From the NCBI GenBank assembly GCA_001508595.1, contig LGHA01000021.1, positions 1-13,224 on the forward strand: DNA of 13,224 bases, read 5' to 3'. The position numbers were made by a program, and so were the translations under genes. Below the pieces are notes generated by a model, which made no database searches, was not told the origin of the DNA, and worked only from the letters and a program-made list of their open reading frames with translations. Origin of the DNA: Anaerolineaceae bacterium 46_22. Its GTDB lineage: Bacteria > Chloroflexota > Anaerolineae > Anaerolineales > Anaerolineaceae. Shown here one piece after another: positions 1 to 9,007 of the stretch. The number at the start of each line of letters is the position of its first letter. Position 1 is the stretch's first letter.

Positions 1-48
1 GTCTCTTGCTTCTTGTATGGATCGTAAATCTTTGTCGAATTCAGGCAT
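1..48 (-). CDS. BMC-associated CoA-acylating aldehyde dehydrogenase, N-terminal fragment (cut by window edge)
   Basis: Only the first 16 codons are inside the window; on the minus strand they read MPEFDKDLRSIQEARD. That 'DLRSIQEARD' opening resembles the start of the catalytic domain of CoA-acylating aldehyde dehydrogenases of the PduP/EutE family, which oxidise the lumen aldehyde to acyl-CoA in metabolosomes. The ATG lies 5 nt after the eutN stop. An AAGG about 9 nt upstream can serve as the ribosome binding site, and another AAAAAGG abuts the ATG. Unlike PduP and EutE there is no N-terminal encapsulation helix before the catalytic domain, so any targeting peptide would have to lie elsewhere, for example at the C-terminus. 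The assignment rests on 16 residues plus the BMC context, so it is probable rather than certain. Confidence 0.6.
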   Translation of the reverse strand, partial: MPEFDKDLRSIQEARD

Positions 49-53
49 CCTTT

Positions 54-344
54 TTAACCTTTCTGAAAGGTCACTTTTCCATCAACTTCCAATGTATCTA
101 TCATAGCCATAATGACTGCATCAACGGGGCGGTTGTCGGTGATGTTTGTTTGCCTTGCACTTGAACCGTGTGCTGTCAGCACCAAATCGCCGATACCCGC
201 GTCGACGGTGTCCACCGCAACGTAAGGTTTACCAATGAATTCACCTTTTTCATCCGTCTGACGGCAGATAAGCAGTTTCCTGCCATGAATTTTCTCATCT
301 TTGATTGTAGATACAGTTGTTCCGATTACTTTGGCAATCAACAT
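54..344 (-). CDS. EutN/CcmL family BMC vertex (pentamer) shell protein
   Basis: This 96-residue protein matches the usual length of BMC-P shell proteins (EutN/CcmL/PduN family), which form pentamers that cap the vertices of the microcompartment shell. It has the family's N-terminal beta strand (MLIAKVIGTTVST), the central GIGDLVLTAHGSSAR stretch at about residues 50-64 and the C-terminal NRPVDAVIMAMID segment at about 71-83. The ATG is preceded by GGAG with about 9 nt spacing, which supports this start. It lies 15 nt after deoC and 5 nt before the aldehyde dehydrogenase start, so it belongs to the same operon. No hexameric BMC-H or trimeric BMC-T shell gene is inside the window. Those would be expected further left, past the window edge. 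The family call is firm; which BMC type it serves is inferred from its neighbours. Confidence 0.93.
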   Translation of the reverse strand: MLIAKVIGTTVSTIKDEKIHGRKLLICRQTDEKGEFIGKPYVAVDTVDAGIGDLVLTAHGSSARQTNITDNRPVDAVIMAMIDTLEVDGKVTFQKG

Positions 345-359
345 GTTTTATTTCTCCGA

Positions 360-1262
360 TCAATAAGATCCAGTTGACTTTGTCGTTTCACCCTGGATGA
401 TCTTCACACCAGCGCTGGCACCCAGGCGGGTTGCACCAGCTGCAATCATTTGCTGGGCATCTTCCTGTGAGTGGATGCCGCCTGCTGCCTTCACACCCAA
501 ACTTGGACCTACCGTGCGCCGCATGAGGGCAACATCATGAACGGTTGCGCCGCCGCTTGAAAAGCCAGTCGATGTTTTTACGAAATCTGCACCTGCTTCT
601 TTTGCGAGCAAACAGGCAATGACTTTCTCTTCATCTGTTAACAAAGCTGTTTCGATGATCACTTTGACAATTGCACCAGATTTGTGTGCAGTTTTGACCA
701 CTGCACGAATATCGCTCGCGACCAGGTCATTGTCCCCTGCTTTGAGGGCGCCGATGTTGATGACCATATCAATTTCAGTTGCACCATGATCGATTGCGTT
801 CTGGGTTTCAAAAGCTTTAACTTCGGTTGAGGTCGCTCCCAGGGGGAAGCCAATAACTGTACAGACTTTGACATCAGAACCGCTCAACAGATCAGTGCAC
901 AATTTCACGTTGGTTGGGTTGACACACACCGATGCAAAGTGATATTTCCGGGCTTCAAAGCATAATTGGGCAATCTGGTCGGCGGTCGCATCTGGTTTTA
1001 GAAGGGTGTGATCAATCATGCGCGCCAGAGATTTATCTTCCGGAATGATTCCAAGTGTTGATGTGAGGCGTTCTGCACCAGCACTGACGACATGGCCAGC
1101 ATTATCAAAGCAAGTTTTTACTTTGATGCCGTCTGCAATTTCAACCACACAGCTCGCACCGGCAGGATAATCCGTTGATTCTTCCTTTTCAATCATAGCA
1201 AGCAAGACTTCACGGGTGATAATTTCAACTAATGTTTCAACAGTTTTCTTATCCGGTGTCAT
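360..1262 (-). CDS. deoC: Deoxyribose-phosphate aldolase (DeoC) with BMC-type N-terminal extension
   Basis: A class I aldolase that cleaves 2-deoxyribose-5-phosphate to glyceraldehyde-3-phosphate and acetaldehyde. The TIM-barrel core spans about residues 80-295. It contains the family residues Asp165 ([12 protein letters not shown]), the Schiff-base Lys229 ([11 protein letters not shown]) and Lys258 (GVKAAGGI), so it should be active. At 300 residues it is about 80 longer than a typical DeoC. The extra part is N-terminal: an amphipathic helix at about residues 5-25 ([20 protein letters not shown]), then a beta-rich stretch with Cys38 and Cys51, and then the usual IDHTLLKP barrel start. The helix looks like an encapsulation peptide that would bind the inside of a microcompartment shell. 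The start overlaps the rpiB stop in an ATGA, indicating translational coupling. Function is near certain; encapsulation is inferred from the extension and the shell-gene neighbour. Confidence 0.95.
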
Positions 1263-1864
1263 GATTTCTTCCCGTCTTTTATAAATTGGTCCATAATCGC
1301 AGTGATTTTGTCGACCCGCCGGGCGTGCCGACCGCCACCAAATTCTGTCTCAAGCCAGGTATTTAATATTTGTTTAGCAAGGTTGATGCCAATCAAACCG
1401 GCACCCAGGGTAAGGACATTGGCATTGTTGTGTTCACGGCTGTTCACAGCGGTGGCATAATCATAACACATCGCAGCTCTAATGCCGGGGACTTTATTAG
1501 CTGCCATGCATGATCCAATCCCTGCACCGTCTATGATCACCCCCCGCCAGGCTTTACCTTCTGCAACGAGTTGGGCAACGGAAAAGGCAATATCGGGGTA
1601 ATCCACCGAATCTTTCGTGTGAGTGCCGATGTCTATAACTTCGTATCCATGTTCAATTAAATCCTTTTTGAGGATTTCCTTCAAGTCCACCCCGCCATGA
1701 TCCGTTCCAATGGCAACCACACGAGGTTTCGTTTCCTCAGCAAGTGTTTCGGGTTTTTCACCAATTGTTTCTTTGTTTTCCGCAGCAGCTTGATTATCCA
1801 TCGTCTTTCCTACAATTCGTTGGACGATTTCGTGGATGTCTTCATTTGAAATGGGGGTGGTCAT
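1259..1864 (-). CDS. rpiB: RpiB/LacAB-family sugar-phosphate isomerase with BMC-type N-terminal extension
   Basis: This belongs to the RpiB family, which interconverts ribose-5-phosphate and ribulose-5-phosphate. The core starts near residue 48 ([11 protein letters not shown]) and holds the phosphate- and sugar-binding segments DHGG (55-58), [10 protein letters not shown] (121-130), REHNNANV (143-150, with His145) and GGGRHARRV (176-184). It is 201 residues against about 150 for E. coli RpiB. The extra 47 or so N-terminal residues form an amphipathic helix (about 6-20, [15 protein letters not shown]) followed by a Glu/Lys/Pro-rich linker, the layout of a BMC encapsulation peptide. The segment that carries the catalytic Cys in E. 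coli (LICGTG) reads IIDGAG here, with Asp112 in place of Cys; Cys119 lies seven residues on. The substrate may therefore differ from ribose-5-phosphate. It is the first gene of the operon, with GGAG about 8 nt before the ATG. Confidence 0.9.
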
Positions 1865-2176: not shown

Positions 2177-2197
2177 CACGAGATGGGACGTGTCAAA

Positions 2198-3241
2198 ATG
2201 AGAACAATAAGCTGGAATGACGATACGCAAAAGGTCGAGATGATCGATCAACGTTTGCTGCCCCAAGATTTCAAGATTAATTCTTATAACCGCTACCAGG
2301 ATGTTGCAGAAGCAATCCAGACTATGGTCATTCGGGGTGCACCAGCCATTGGCGCTGCGGCAGCATTTGGGTTGGCTCTGGCTGGATTTCAATCGCAGGC
2401 AAGCACAAAGGAAGCTCTGCTTCAGGATTTGAGGGAGGCTGGTGAGCACCTCAAGAAAGCCAGACCAACTGCGGTCAATCTTGCCTGGGCTGTCAAGCGT
2501 ATGTTACGGGCTGCAGATGGATTTGAAGGACCTGCTGATAAATTGCGTGAGCATCTTCAAAATTTGGCAAAAGAAATTGCTGATGAAGATGTCGAAATCA
2601 ACAAACGATTGTCGGAATTTGGTGCAGCATTAATCGAAGACGGTGATCATATCGTTCACCACTGCAACACTGGTGCGCTGGCAACGGTCGATTGGGGGAC
2701 AGCGTTGGGCGTGATTCGCATGGCGCATGAACAGGGCAAGAAGATTCATGTCTTTGTGGATGAAACCCGCCCGCGCTTACAGGGTGCTCGATTGACAGCC
2801 TGGGAGCTGGAACAATATGGTATTCCCTATGACATTATCACCGATGGCTCTTCAGGATACCTGATGCGAAAAGGACTGGTTCAAAAGGTGATATTTGGTG
2901 CCGACAGAGTCGCAGCCAATGGCGATGTCGCTAACAAAATTGGAAGTTATATGCTCGCTCTGGCAGCCTATGACAACGGCATCCCGGCGTATTCAGCTTT
3001 CCCAATTTCAACCGTTGATTTCGAGCTTGAGCGTGGTGATCTGATCCCAATTGAAGAACGCGAAGCAGCTGAAGTGCTGCAGCTCCAGTTACTGGGTAAG
3101 CGGGTTACGCCAGAAAGTGCCTCGGCACGCAATTTTGCCTTCGATGTCACGCCTGCTCGCTTGATTTCTGCCTGGATTACAGAAAAGGGTGTGATTTACC
3201 CACCGTTTAAAGTAAATTTAAAAGCCGCAATGGTGAATTAA
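2198..3241 (+). CDS. mtnA: S-methyl-5-thioribose-1-phosphate isomerase (MtnA)
   Basis: This enzyme converts the aldose 5-methylthioribose-1-phosphate to the ketose 5-methylthioribulose-1-phosphate in methionine salvage; family members can also act on 5-deoxyribose-1-phosphate. The 347-residue length and the motifs fit: MIDQRLLP near the N-terminus, VIRGAPAIG, the catalytic Cys in HHCNTGALAT (Cys156 from this start), and the catalytic Asp in FGADRVAANGDVANKIG (Asp236). Together with the VDETRPRLQGARLT and PISTVD segments these define the eIF2B-related isomerase fold. I chose the ATG at 2198 because family proteins start MRTI at this point. An in-frame ATG at 2183 would add five residues but has no visible ribosome binding site and sits 6 nt after a terminator-like U tract. 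adoK follows after 9 nt. No MTR kinase or MTA phosphorylase is in the window, so the source of the substrate is not shown. Confidence 0.95.
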   Translation: MRTISWNDDTQKVEMIDQRLLPQDFKINSYNRYQDVAEAIQTMVIRGAPAIGAAAAFGLALAGFQSQASTKEALLQDLREAGEHLKKARPTAVNLAWAVKRMLRAADGFEGPADKLREHLQNLAKEIADEDVEINKRLSEFGAALIEDGDHIVHHCNTGALATVDWGTALGVIRMAHEQGKKIHVFVDETRPRLQGARLTAWELEQYGIPYDIITDGSSGYLMRKGLVQKVIFGADRVAANGDVANKIGSYMLALAAYDNGIPAYSAFPISTVDFELERGDLIPIEEREAAEVLQLQLLGKRVTPESASARNFAFDVTPARLISAWITEKGVIYPPFKVNLKAAMVN

Positions 3242-3250
3242 GGAACGAAT

Positions 3251-4216
3251 ATGAGTATTATTTTAACGGGCTCAATCGCTTTTGATTATTTGATGTCTTT
3301 CCCCGGATATTTTAAAGATCACATCCTTCCGGAACATTTAGAATCGATCAGTTTGTCCTTTTTGGTGGATGAAATGGTCCGCCGTCCCGGCGGCGTTGCC
3401 GCCAATATTGCCTACAACCTGGGATTATTGTGTGAGAAACCCCGTTTGGTGGCAACAGCCGGGGTTGATTTTTCTGAGTATCGACAAATTTTAGAAGATG
3501 CGGGTGTGGACACCTCAGGTGTAAAAATAATTGAAAACAAATTCACAGCCTCATTCTTTGCAAATACGGATCTCTCGAACGCTCAAATTGCCAGTTTTTA
3601 TGCGGGTGCGATGGCAGATGCATCTCAGATCTCAATGAAGGAATTAGGATTGACGGATGAGGATCTTGTCGTGATTTCACCCAATGCACCGGATGCGATG
3701 ATCAAGTATGCTTTAGAATGCCAGGAGTTGGGTGTTCCTTATATTTTTGACCCCAGCCAACAAATCATCCGTCTTCAACAGGAAGATATTCAAAAGGGTG
3801 TAAAAGGTGCACACGCATTATTTTCAAATGAATATGAGTTTGAATTGATCCAAAAACACGGCAAGATGAGCGCGGGAGAGATTTTGGAATCCCTTGCATT
3901 TGCTGTTGTTACACTGGGTAAAGAAGGCGCACGTGTTTATAAAAACGGTGCAGTTTTGGGTGAGGTACCCGCCTTCCCTCCGAAACACATCGCAGATCCA
4001 ACGGGTGTTGGTGATGCCTTCAGGGCAGGTTTTTTGAAGGCTTATGTGAATGGCTTTGACCTCTTACTATGTGCTAAAATGGGCAGCCTGGCAGCGACCT
4101 ACTGCCTGGAAGAAACAGGCACCCAGACGCAGTGTTACAGGATGAAAGACTTCGTCACCCGATTTCGAACCTTTTATGATGACGAAGGCGCATTGGATAA
4201 ATTTATTGAGGAATAA
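3251..4216 (+). CDS. adoK: Adenosine kinase, PfkB/ribokinase family, mycobacterial AdoK type
   Basis: This protein most likely phosphorylates adenosine to AMP. From memory it closely resembles the ribokinase-like adenosine kinase of Mycobacterium: shared stretches include TGSIA-D-LM-FPG, LPEHL--SLSFLVD, GGVAANIAYNLG, AQIASFYAGAM (about 111-121), DPSQQIIRL (167-175), and the C-terminal PfkB signature DPTGVGDAFRAGF (249-261) with catalytic Asp255. The 321-residue length is normal. The start has AAGGAA about 5 nt upstream. It sits between mtnA (9 nt gap) and ahcY (54 nt gap), and that context fits adenosine: removing the adenosine released by AhcY pulls the reversible hydrolysis of S-adenosylhomocysteine forward. 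A different nucleoside or sugar substrate within the PfkB family cannot be excluded, but the sequence match and the ahcY neighbour both point to adenosine. Confidence 0.88.
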   Translation: MSIILTGSIAFDYLMSFPGYFKDHILPEHLESISLSFLVDEMVRRPGGVAANIAYNLGLLCEKPRLVATAGVDFSEYRQILEDAGVDTSGVKIIENKFTASFFANTDLSNAQIASFYAGAMADASQISMKELGLTDEDLVVISPNAPDAMIKYALECQELGVPYIFDPSQQIIRLQQEDIQKGVKGAHALFSNEYEFELIQKHGKMSAGEILESLAFAVVTLGKEGARVYKNGAVLGEVPAFPPKHIADPTGVGDAFRAGFLKAYVNGFDLLLCAKMGSLAATYCLEETGTQTQCYRMKDFVTRFRTFYDDEGALDKFIEE

Positions 4217-5530
<1,314 letters not shown>

Positions 5531-6832: not shown

Positions 6833-7691
6833 AGTGTGTCAAGTCCGCAAGCCAGGCGTTAAATATGAGATAAGGGTCAAAGAGCTGAAAGTACCCGCTC
6901 ATTCGCCATAGGCAGTAATTCGCCCGCTGGGCTTCGGTATATTTTGTTTCGTAAAATGCCATATCACCGAGATCAGCACCAGAAGGGCCGAGCCGTGTTT
7001 CCAGGTGCAGGTGGTGGTTGCTGGAGCGGCCTGAATTGCCTACGGTACCGAGTTGGACACCGCAGTTAATAAGGTCACCCTTCTGAAAGGATGGTGAGTT
7101 TTCAAGGTGAGCATATAAGTGATAGACCGACAGGTTTTCAGTTAAGGTCGGCGGTGAAATTTCAGGGCATTCTCCCTGGTATTGAACATTCTCAGGGATG
7201 GGTTGATAAAGGCTTTTGAGCTTATCCTGCAAAGGTCCAGGCAGCTCTGATAATGGTGTTTCAATGATGATTGTGTTGCCGTAAGGAATTTCATCCGGCA
7301 AGGTCAGGGATATTGTTCCGGATAGGATTGCATAAACTTCAATGCCCTGTATCGATTCTCGCGTACCACGCCGATAATATGAAAAATCGAGGCCGTGATG
7401 TCCATCGTCACGTCCAAAGGCTGGGATAACAAGGGGGTTGACCAGGATTGAAGGCAGGGTTTCAAGCGTTTCCTCTTCTAATGGGCAGCATACCCGGAAA
7501 GCATGCGTCGTACTTGTGGGCATTTCCATAGTTTGTGTGGGCTGTTGTGATGTCCTGGACATAGTCTGTGTTGGTAATGGGGCTGCCGTTGGCTCCACCG
7601 TGTTTGCAGGGGGCAAAGCAGTGCTTGTCACCACTTGAGGTTGACAAGCACTTAGAAAAATGGTCATGATCAACAGGCAGCGCCACTTCAT
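6831..7691 (-). CDS. M23-family metallopeptidase lipoprotein
   Basis: From the ATG at 7691 the protein has 286 residues. It starts with a lipoprotein signal (MKWRCLLIMTIFLSAC) whose lipobox LSAC puts the lipidated Cys at residue 16. A Ser/Thr/Pro/Gln-rich linker follows to about residue 65, and then an M23 (LytM/Gly-Gly endopeptidase-like) domain. The zinc-site motifs are present: HHGLD (His98, Asp102), YAHLE (His195) and HLHLE (His227, His229), so it is probably an active zinc peptidase anchored outside the membrane and acting on peptidoglycan or another surface peptide. An insertion between the first and second motifs holds several Pro-rich segments. An earlier in-frame ATG at 7712 would add MPSDTSL and spoil the signal's N-terminus. 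The chosen ATG shares its A with the upstream stop (TGATG), indicating coupling to the DUF1015 gene. The substrate is unknown. Confidence 0.85.
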   Translation of the reverse strand: MKWRCLLIMTIFLSACQPQVVTSTALPPANTVEPTAAPLPTQTMSRTSQQPTQTMEMPTSTTHAFRVCCPLEEETLETLPSILVNPLVIPAFGRDDGHHGLDFSYYRRGTRESIQGIEVYAILSGTISLTLPDEIPYGNTIIIETPLSELPGPLQDKLKSLYQPIPENVQYQGECPEISPPTLTENLSVYHLYAHLENSPSFQKGDLINCGVQLGTVGNSGRSSNHHLHLETRLGPSGADLGDMAFYETKYTEAQRANYCLWRMSGYFQLFDPYLIFNAWLADLTH

Positions 7692-9007
7692 CAAGCTTGT
7701 ATCCGACGGCATTCCATATAGAAACGCTTTTCTTTGGCTTCTCCCATGGAGAAAGTCTTTCGAGGTAGGGCGCCATCAAGGATGACCGTCTTGAACAACT
7801 CGGATTTATCCATACCAGGGACATAGAAACCCGCATTGCCAGTTTGTATTCCCTTTTCAAAGAGGACTTTTGTACCGTGGACATAATCGATGTCCCTTGC
7901 CCCGTTGTCCTCGAGGAAGGAATCCAGGAATTTCTGCAAAGTGCCGACGGGAAGATTGTCTTCAGGATGATGAACCTCAATGAGTTTCAATCCGTCCGGG
8001 GTGATCATCCCGATTTGATGCCATGGTTCCGCTGCATCATCGACGATTTGGATCAAGGTTTCCTGGGAAGATAGATCTTTGATTTTTAATTTTTCACCCC
8101 AGTAATCTTGCATCGCTTCGATGATGTCTGTGTGGATGTCGAAGATCAGCCGGTGAATGGGCTCGAAGTCCAATGCCGGGTCATGTACATTCTCAATTTC
8201 TACGAGTGCATAACGTGCAGGATGATCCATACCGACGGTGGGCTTGATCTTTTCCCAAATAGCTTTGGCTGTCGCCAATGAATGATTGCCGTCACCCATA
8301 GCAAACAAAAGGGGTTGGTGCTCCCCGAGTTTCAGGTTATATTTATCCGCAAATTTTTCCGGGCTAATTAATGTTTGCAGGGTTTGTAAAACCTGTTTAC
8401 GCACCTGGTCATCCCCCAAAGCATAACCGGAAAGATGACCGCTGCCCAACATGAGGTCAAAATCATAAACTATTTTAAAGTTTTCTATTTGCTCATCCAG
8501 GAGTCCAAACACTTTATCAGCCGGGTCATCAAAAAGAACCAGAATGTGAGGACATTCCAATGGTGCTTTTTCACGGATGCGGATGCGCGGCGGTAAGCGA
8601 TCCAAAATGGTGCCTTCTGTCGCTCGTATAAGGGTTTGTGCGCCCTTATTGAAATCGTAATGTTCCAGATCAAGGCAGACCATCAAACCGCGGCGTGTTC
8701 GATTGCCAATTCTTCGGCGTACATAAATAAAATCATTGACTCTGCGAAAAATGTCTGATTCAAGATACTGCCCCATGACCTTGTGCGTGGTCTCGATTCG
8801 GTTTTTCTCCTCTGGCGTGCCCAGATAAACTTCCGGCAAAATGATGTGGTAGGTTGATGGTGAGTCGCCAACAATTTCTTTGACTTGTTCCCAATACTCA
8901 GGTTCAGACGTAAATTGATCGCAGGCAATCACAGCCCATTTTTTATAATCAATGGATGTCTTGGGGAGAAGCATATCAGGTACTTTCATGCCGATCTCAG
9001 GGGTCAT
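7691..9007 (-). CDS. DUF1015 family protein of unknown function
   Basis: This 438-residue protein looks like the DUF1015 (PF06245) family, widespread in anaerobic bacteria and without an established reaction as far as I know. Recognisable parts are the N-terminal AVIACDQFTSEPEYWEQV (25-42), the central FAMGDGNHSLATAKAIWE (235-252) with the characteristic GDGNHS, and DYVHGTK (374-380). The C-terminus PRKTFSMGEAKEKRFYMECRRI replaces the more usual MPPKSTYFYPK-type ending. It has no signal peptide or membrane segment, so it should be cytoplasmic. AGGAAGGA about 4 nt before the ATG at 9007 makes this start firm, although a second in-frame ATG lies six codons in. It is translationally coupled to the M23 lipoprotein gene downstream (TGATG). 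The coupling links the two products but does not reveal their job. Confidence 0.85.
   Translation of the reverse strand: MTPEIGMKVPDMLLPKTSIDYKKWAVIACDQFTSEPEYWEQVKEIVGDSPSTYHIILPEVYLGTPEEKNRIETTHKVMGQYLESDIFRRVNDFIYVRRRIGNRTRRGLMVCLDLEHYDFNKGAQTLIRATEGTILDRLPPRIRIREKAPLECPHILVLFDDPADKVFGLLDEQIENFKIVYDFDLMLGSGHLSGYALGDDQVRKQVLQTLQTLISPEKFADKYNLKLGEHQPLLFAMGDGNHSLATAKAIWEKIKPTVGMDHPARYALVEIENVHDPALDFEPIHRLIFDIHTDIIEAMQDYWGEKLKIKDLSSQETLIQIVDDAAEPWHQIGMITPDGLKLIEVHHPEDNLPVGTLQKFLDSFLEDNGARDIDYVHGTKVLFEKGIQTGNAGFYVPGMDKSELFKTVILDGALPRKTFSMGEAKEKRFYMECRRIQA

Follow-up and report, generated by a model that had tools for sequence, protein, structure and literature searches.

Positions 1–1864 of a 13,224-nt contig from an Anaerolineaceae bacterium (the contig, C170 in our numbering, is taken whole and is called the window here) carry the upstream end of an operon for a bacterial microcompartment (BMC). 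The locus belongs with near certainty to the sugar phosphate utilizing (SPU) class, and probably to its subtype SPU6. It is likely, in our view, that the operon serves the conversion of deoxyribose-5-phosphate to acetaldehyde and on to acetyl-CoA within a protein shell, and that a re-tooled protein of the RpiB family takes part. In outline, 2-deoxyribose-5-phosphate from DNA turnover would enter a shell of BMC-H, CcmP-like BMC-T and three pentameric BMC-P proteins. The RpiB-like protein, probably encapsulated and altered at two catalytic positions (Cys to Asp, Thr/Ser to Ala), would be expected to act on the sugar phosphate just before the aldolase DeoC, and the shell would confine acetaldehyde until an acylating aldehyde dehydrogenase (ALDH) makes acetyl-CoA. 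The gene set, the operon order of relatives, the active-site residues and the clade that they mark come from sequence, from which we infer that the enzymes are encapsulated, what the substrate and the flux are, and what RpiB does.

The genes of the locus are all on the minus strand. An rpiB-like gene (1259–1864; 201 aa; 187.3 bits with LacAB_rpiB, PF02502) is followed by deoC (360–1262; 300 aa; 61 bits with Pfam DeoC and 290.5 bits with NCBIfam deoC, TIGR00126). Next comes a gene for a pentameric shell (vertex) protein of the EutN/CcmL type, the BMC-P (54–344; 96 aa), for which a profile search gave 95.5 bits with PF03319 (EutN_CcmL). The scores of all three families are well over their cut-offs. 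A preliminary description of the stretch had named these three genes and their tight coupling, and open reading frames together with family searches confirm both, down to the 4-bp overlap and the gaps of 15 and 5 nt. It had also suspected an aldehyde dehydrogenase in the partial gene at the left edge. Positions 48 down to 1 translate to MPEFDKDLRSIQEARD, and 16/16 residues match the start of a 486-aa ALDH in three same-genus loci (L034, L037 and L032), which identifies 1–48 as the start (16 codons) of a gene for an acylating acetaldehyde dehydrogenase, truncated by the contig end. For the L034 enzyme the best family is acetaldehyde dehydrogenase (acetylating), TIGR02518, at 574 bits, under the model cut-off of 620. 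The locus had further been described as ending here: the upstream part of the operon is present, the left boundary being that of the contig itself. Every SPU subtype has pfam01791 and pfam02502, together with an aldehyde dehydrogenase and shell genes (Sutter 2021, PMC8217296). The SPU assignment of the earlier description is borne out by the occurrence of pfam01791, pfam02502, a BMC-P and an ALDH start at one locus.

The rest of the operon can be read in relatives. In two genomes of the same genus (G012, locus L034; G006, locus L037) the order is rpiB-deoC-BMC-P-ALDH-BMC-H-eutJ-BMC-T(CcmP-like)-EutQ-like-BMC-P-BMC-P, the families having been scanned for L034 and transferred to L037 by clustering. 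The products are close to those of the window (BMC-P 95–100% identical, the L034 copy being the identical one; DeoC 98–99%; RpiB 92% for both), and the right flank is the same: mtnA, a pfkB-type kinase gene, ahcY and a gene that we take to be recA-like. The further shell genes foreseen to the left of the window are found in both relatives as a BMC-H, a BMC-T and two more BMC-P. EutJ of the L034 operon scores 360 bits. A 208-aa protein without a Pfam match is classed as a CcmP-like tandem BMC-T, because its profile matches the solved CcmP (E 1e-71) and HO-5816 (E 1e-65). A 120-aa protein (L034:9866–10228) owes its family name to a weak EutQ match (E 1.7e-4). Its C-terminus has predicted helices resembling an encapsulation peptide; its AlphaFold2 model (mean pLDDT 72, pTM 0.34) gave no match at E ≤ 0.001 in a Foldseek comparison with the PDB. 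Among 61 genomes (the window's own and those of its genus, family and order), PF03319 occurs in 39, mostly in three copies, and PF00936 in 35. PduA-type BMC-H proteins have a loop that reads EKIGSGLVTV. The loop reads EYVGGGYVTV in the BMC-H of L034 (7988–8305) and of other loci, which could mean a wide, glycine-lined pore. In one genome (G022) the operon is split, with RpiB-DeoC-BMC-P-BMC-H-EutQ-like-BMC-P-BMC-P on one contig (C14, locus L039) and ALDH, BMC-H and BMC-T on another (C15).

The feature that sets the RpiB-like protein apart is its active site. Aligned with three solved RpiB proteins, which read CGTGLG or CGSGIG, the window protein reads DGAGIGS (residues 112–118; 1511–1531, minus strand). 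The catalytic Cys (Cys66 in E. coli) is absent, Asp112 standing in its place, as is the Thr/Ser that shuttles the proton between O2 and O1, where Ala114 is found; the RpiB fold family and the Asp-His pair are kept. Of the 120 places with a PF02502 match in the 61 genomes, 116 were readable at the catalytic position (the other four are short or weak), and they hold 33 Asp and 83 Cys; the readings comprise 91 places (92 rows, the window gene being entered twice) plus 10 plus 15. The two types differ in their surroundings. A PF03319 gene lies nearby on the contig for 30/33 Asp-type genes. The remaining three (in G024, G041 and G054) are less than 1 kb from a contig end and read off it, and PF03319 occurs elsewhere in those genomes. 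None of the 83 Cys-type genes is in a BMC-P operon, the nearest (in G030) having a PF03319 gene at a distance of about 5 kb, on the opposite strand. In a wider set that includes named genomes, Asp is found in 54/55 RpiB matches (38/38 named loci, 15/16 unnamed ones and the window), the only exception being the Cys-type paralogue of G030. A BMC-P is in the locus for 49 of these 54 and likewise for the window, and L067 has a BMC-T only; in L073, L075 and L104 a deoC adjoins the Asp-type rpiB, with no shell gene within the stretch examined. The labels of Asp-type loci include Planctomycetota, Bryobacterales, Thermoanaerobaculia, Calditrichota, Eremiobacterota and Myxococcales.

The Asp-type proteins also stand together in a tree. 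Among 136 distinct sequences (those under 120 residues were excluded, and the motif columns were retained), the 63 Asp-type ones are separated from the rest by a branch supported at 100/98, in a bootstrap that had not fully settled. A shell or ALDH gene is in the stretch for 57 of the 63, three are at contig-end cuts, and L073, L075 and L104 make up the rest. All 63, which have Asp by definition, have Ala at the Thr/Ser position and Ser at the next variable position, as against Ser or Thr at the former position in 73/73 of the Cys group. The Asp-His pair is found in 63/63 and a later His in 61/63 (both by pattern), and an Arg-rich segment in most. The clade is consistent with a single origin, and the sequences therefore document long retention rather than independent events. 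One locus labelled Bacteroidetes (L057, JAMCQL010000067.1) has an SPU RpiB that falls among Anaerolineae in the tree, a case of misbinning or of recent transfer. In the accessible parts of the SPU literature we found no mention of the change from Cys to Asp, and the altered active site is, to that extent, an apparently unreported feature of the class.

In characterized RpiB proteins the Cys acts as the base, and proton transfer between O2 and O1 is the task of the Thr. Activity is abolished by C69S in the Leishmania enzyme and by C69A in that of T. cruzi; in LacAB, Cys65 is essential and T67A lowers activity about 20-fold (PMC4783025, PMC3755991). Since the RpiB-like protein has neither the catalytic Cys nor the Thr, a pentose-phosphate isomerase step is doubtful, and the ribose-5-phosphate isomerase role published for SPU RpiB is not well supported. 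We tentatively suggest that the protein is a distinct enzyme and not a ribose-5-phosphate isomerase, DGAGIGS having been fixed once in place of CGTGIG/CGSGVG. It might open the sugar ring or act as an anomerase, and would then feed the open-chain aldehyde to DeoC; alternatively, it might isomerize another pentose phosphate by means of the Asp. With no O2, 2-deoxyribose-5-phosphate needs neither the Thr shuttle nor a Cys to remove the C2 proton. If true, either role would explain exactly these two changes, with the Asp-His pair and the ring-opening His kept. Ring opening for DeoC would be chemically neat, and it is a bold reading. The consistent absence of the catalytic residues from SPU RpiB narrows the question of the SPU substrate to a test of a single enzyme.

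Two other accounts of the protein can be weighed against the same residues. It might be an ordinary ribose-5-phosphate/ribulose-5-phosphate isomerase in which Asp112 replaces Cys as the base, in an organelle that handles both ribose and deoxyribose phosphate. The catalogue papers on SPU, in their accessible parts, assume a ribose-phosphate role, and the persistence of the Asp-His pair, the later His and the Arg-rich segment would suit it. The base of M. tuberculosis RpiB is moreover Glu75, at a different position (PMC4783025, PMC3755991), so a carboxylate base is possible. The mutant losses cited above argue the other way, as does the alteration of both the Cys and the Thr/Ser positions in 63 distinct sequences, and we regard this account as rather unlikely. 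More improbable still is that the protein has lost all catalytic activity and acts as a cargo or scaffold with a structural or regulatory part to play. Loss of both residues would fit, and so would an N-terminal extension that looks like a docking peptide and that, in seven other SPU-like loci, holds a second small domain; yet Ala in 63/63, Ser in 63/63 and an Asp-His pair persisting across several phylum labels are unlike drift.

The N-terminal extension just mentioned comprises about 48 residues of the window protein, solved RpiB proteins aligning from residue 47–50 onward. Cys-type RpiB genes mostly have shorter open frames, a comparison of frame length in which the extensions themselves were not compared one by one. 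Residues 1–24 (1793–1864, minus strand) form a putative, helix-like encapsulation peptide that is kept in relatives. DeoC has a putative peptide of the same kind, likewise kept in relatives: its barrel motif starts at residue 83, and residues 1–27 (1182–1262, minus strand) are a helix-like conserved stretch, which the Firmicutes DeoCs compared are without. Between peptide and barrel, SPU DeoCs have a Cys-rich segment (L046, L055, L065, L073, L075 and L121; e.g., CTQECADGICVKTC, and in L073 CTDCLICAQKCP), which may possibly be a metal or Fe-S site. In the window it is reduced to Cys38 and Cys51 (1110–1151, minus strand). At least two Cys within the 62 residues before the barrel are found in 49/50 DeoCs that have both RpiB and a shell or ALDH gene as neighbours vs. 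5/38 that have neither; in this count one contig was entered twice (L042 and L051), two rows were unreadable, and seven DeoCs with one kind of neighbour were set aside. The small domain of the EutQ-like protein resembles the domain fused ahead of RpiB in L067–L070, L072, L102 and L104 (hhalign probability 77%, E 2e-5).

Acetaldehyde is the best-founded element of the proposed pathway. An alignment to 6d33 and a residue check place Asp165, Lys229 and Lys258 in DeoC, and we take one Asp and two Lys to be the catalytic residues of the family. As DeoC keeps them, its predicted production of acetaldehyde is well supported. Acetaldehyde is also the substrate of an acetylating dehydrogenase, and the ALDH is nearest to the acetylating acetaldehyde dehydrogenases. 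A locus of a sibling genus adds to this (G036, locus L041): EutA, EutB, EutC and a tandem-BMC gene replace RpiB-DeoC, next to an ALDH and a BMC-T that are 62% and 76% identical to their SPU counterparts. Genes of the same clusters also occur in G034 and G058. Acetaldehyde is likewise a product of ethanolamine ammonia-lyase. An exchange of EutABC and RpiB-DeoC around a shared ALDH, with acetaldehyde coming from both sets, therefore points to acetaldehyde as the common intermediate and supports it as the one that is confined. The route from pentose or deoxypentose phosphate through acetaldehyde to acetyl-CoA, as sketched in the preliminary description, thus fares unevenly: deoxyribose phosphate to acetyl-CoA is likely and its acetaldehyde step well supported, the isomerase step being the doubtful one.

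The phosphopentomutase DeoB converts deoxyribose-1-phosphate to deoxyribose-5-phosphate. A deoB was found in 14/35 SPU-bearing genomes (13 over the family cut-off, and a partial one of 183 bits in the window's own genome) vs. 2/26 others (Fisher p 0.007). SPU-bearing here means that PF03319 is present, minus four genomes whose readable RpiB genes are all of the Cys type (G034, G036, G046 and G058); G002 was counted although no Asp-type RpiB was found there. In G028 deoB divergently adjoins rpiB (L045:6506–7708). Over the cut-off, deoB is in 15/61 genomes. These results favour deoxyribose phosphate but are no proof, and several of them, with other observations, weigh against the pathway that we propose. 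Counted per genus, the link weakens to 7/19 vs. 2/23 (p 0.055); with the genus of the window set aside it stands at 7/20 vs. 2/25 (p 0.057). No deoB over the cut-off is found in 21/35 SPU genomes, some of them incomplete, and the weaker matches left out of the count would bring deoB to 32/61 genomes at E ≤ 0.001. Pyrimidine-nucleoside phosphorylase was tried as a discriminator and dropped, being present in 57/61 genomes and so giving no contrast. The earlier description proposed to look for a phosphotransacylase: the PduL kind (PF06130) is in 0/35 SPU-bearing genomes and 1/61 overall, namely in G046, which has no SPU-type RpiB (the Pta kind was not searched), and CoA recycling inside the shell is therefore unexplained. 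The window's own genome gave no match to PF00936 (BMC-H) or to the ALDH or BMC-T of the relatives, which, with the contig ending inside the operon and at 71% completeness, is uninformative. Our literature searches found no biochemical data on the SPU organelle.

We give little credence to two alternatives that concern the locus as a whole. The operon might be tied to the neighbouring mtnA-pfkB-ahcY genes, that is, to methylthioribose or 5-deoxyribose salvage, its substrate then being a 5-deoxypentose phosphate. An mtnA cluster is indeed divergent beside rpiB in the window, L033, L034, L037 and L042; yet the shared mtnA family occurs in only 5/52 SPU loci (with flanks of unequal length), two loci of the same genus (L032 and L035) adjoin der and signal-peptidase housekeeping genes instead, and the aldolase is a DeoC-family protein, all of which makes the idea very unlikely. 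As other loci of the genus are flanked differently, we rejected mtnA-pfkB-ahcY as a part of the system. It is even less probable that this strain retains a mere remnant of the locus and lacks a complete shell. A genome of 99% completeness (G018, locus L038) has rpiB-deoC and three BMC-P, and no PF00936, CcmP-like BMC-T or close ALDH was found there; in Bellilinea sp. KatS3mg047 (L064) three BMC-P follow rpiB-deoC, with no PF00936 or BMC-T in the 1.7 Mb examined, the ALDH having been looked for only within the 20.9-kb locus. These two loci have pentamers and cargo without hexamers. In the window, by contrast, the ALDH frame starts intact, and the two nearest relatives (BMC-P 95–100% and DeoC 98–99% identical) have the full operon. 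The deoxyribose phosphate pathway within a complete shell remains the view that we prefer.

The genes at 2183–5530, which diverge from the BMC operon, are mtnA, one for a PfkB-family (nucleoside-kinase-like) kinase, and ahcY, a row that resembles an adenosine/methylthioadenosine recycling cluster. A sigma-70-like site lies at 2110–2138 with an 11/12 match (3 promoter-like sites vs. 1.6 expected). A 438-aa open reading frame at 7691–9007 (minus strand) resembles proteins of the DUF1015 family. No RNA family passed its gathering threshold in the window and no tRNA was found there. The source assembly (1.45 Mb in 228 contigs) is a Brevefilum-like Anaerolineaceae metagenome-assembled genome. The nearest organism-named relative of RpiB is labelled Brevefilum sp. 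(92% identity over 90% of the query, among the best 120 of 7999 matches), and for DeoC the named contigs that match best (among the best 80 of 591) bear the labels Anaerolineaceae, Anaerolineales or Chloroflexi. An SPU locus is also present in a cultured organism, Levilinea saccharolytica KIBI-1 (L055).

Set beside known systems, the window locus is an ordinary fragment that adds one member to a known organelle class. The assignment to SPU6 rests on gene content, taxonomic class, kinship with EUT3 and the type of aldehyde dehydrogenase. We know of no solved member of the SPU6 BMC-Tdp clade. Against the subtype, the SPU6 BMC-Tdp has been put in a clade apart from the CcmP-like proteins (PMC8217296), yet the best solved match of the relatives' protein is CcmP. 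The class was named by Axen 2014 (PMC4207490); Sutter 2021 lists Anaerolineae as carriers of SPU6 and suggests that DNA degradation products are catabolized (PMC8217296). The relatives' operon agrees with that description in having DeoC and RpiB, an aldehyde dehydrogenase, BMC-H, a tandem BMC-T and three BMC-P together, and in coming from the class Anaerolineae. The first SPU loci had PduL in all cases except Marinimicrobia (PMC4207490), and the present locus differs from them in having none; PduL is not in the 2021 definition (PMC8217296). A further difference from the published description is the RpiB without its catalytic Cys, a point that these two papers leave unmentioned in their accessible parts. 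The exchange of enzymes between SPU6 and EUT3 was described by Sutter 2021 (PMC8217296). In our data the sibling-genus locus shares the kind of ALDH and BMC-T, with EutA/B/C as signature enzymes there and RpiB/DeoC here. With the HO microcompartment of Haliangium ochraceum the system shares a homologous BMC-T (HO-5816) and the BMC-P triplet; DeoC and RpiB are in the main locus here, whereas in some HO genomes a pfam01791 gene is found away from it (PMC8217296). Finally, the RpiB-like protein has the fold family of solved RpiB (C. thermocellum-type 3he8; 1nn4; 2vvr) and aligns with them ungapped across the active site, while differing in Cys to Asp, Thr to Ala and the N-terminal extension.

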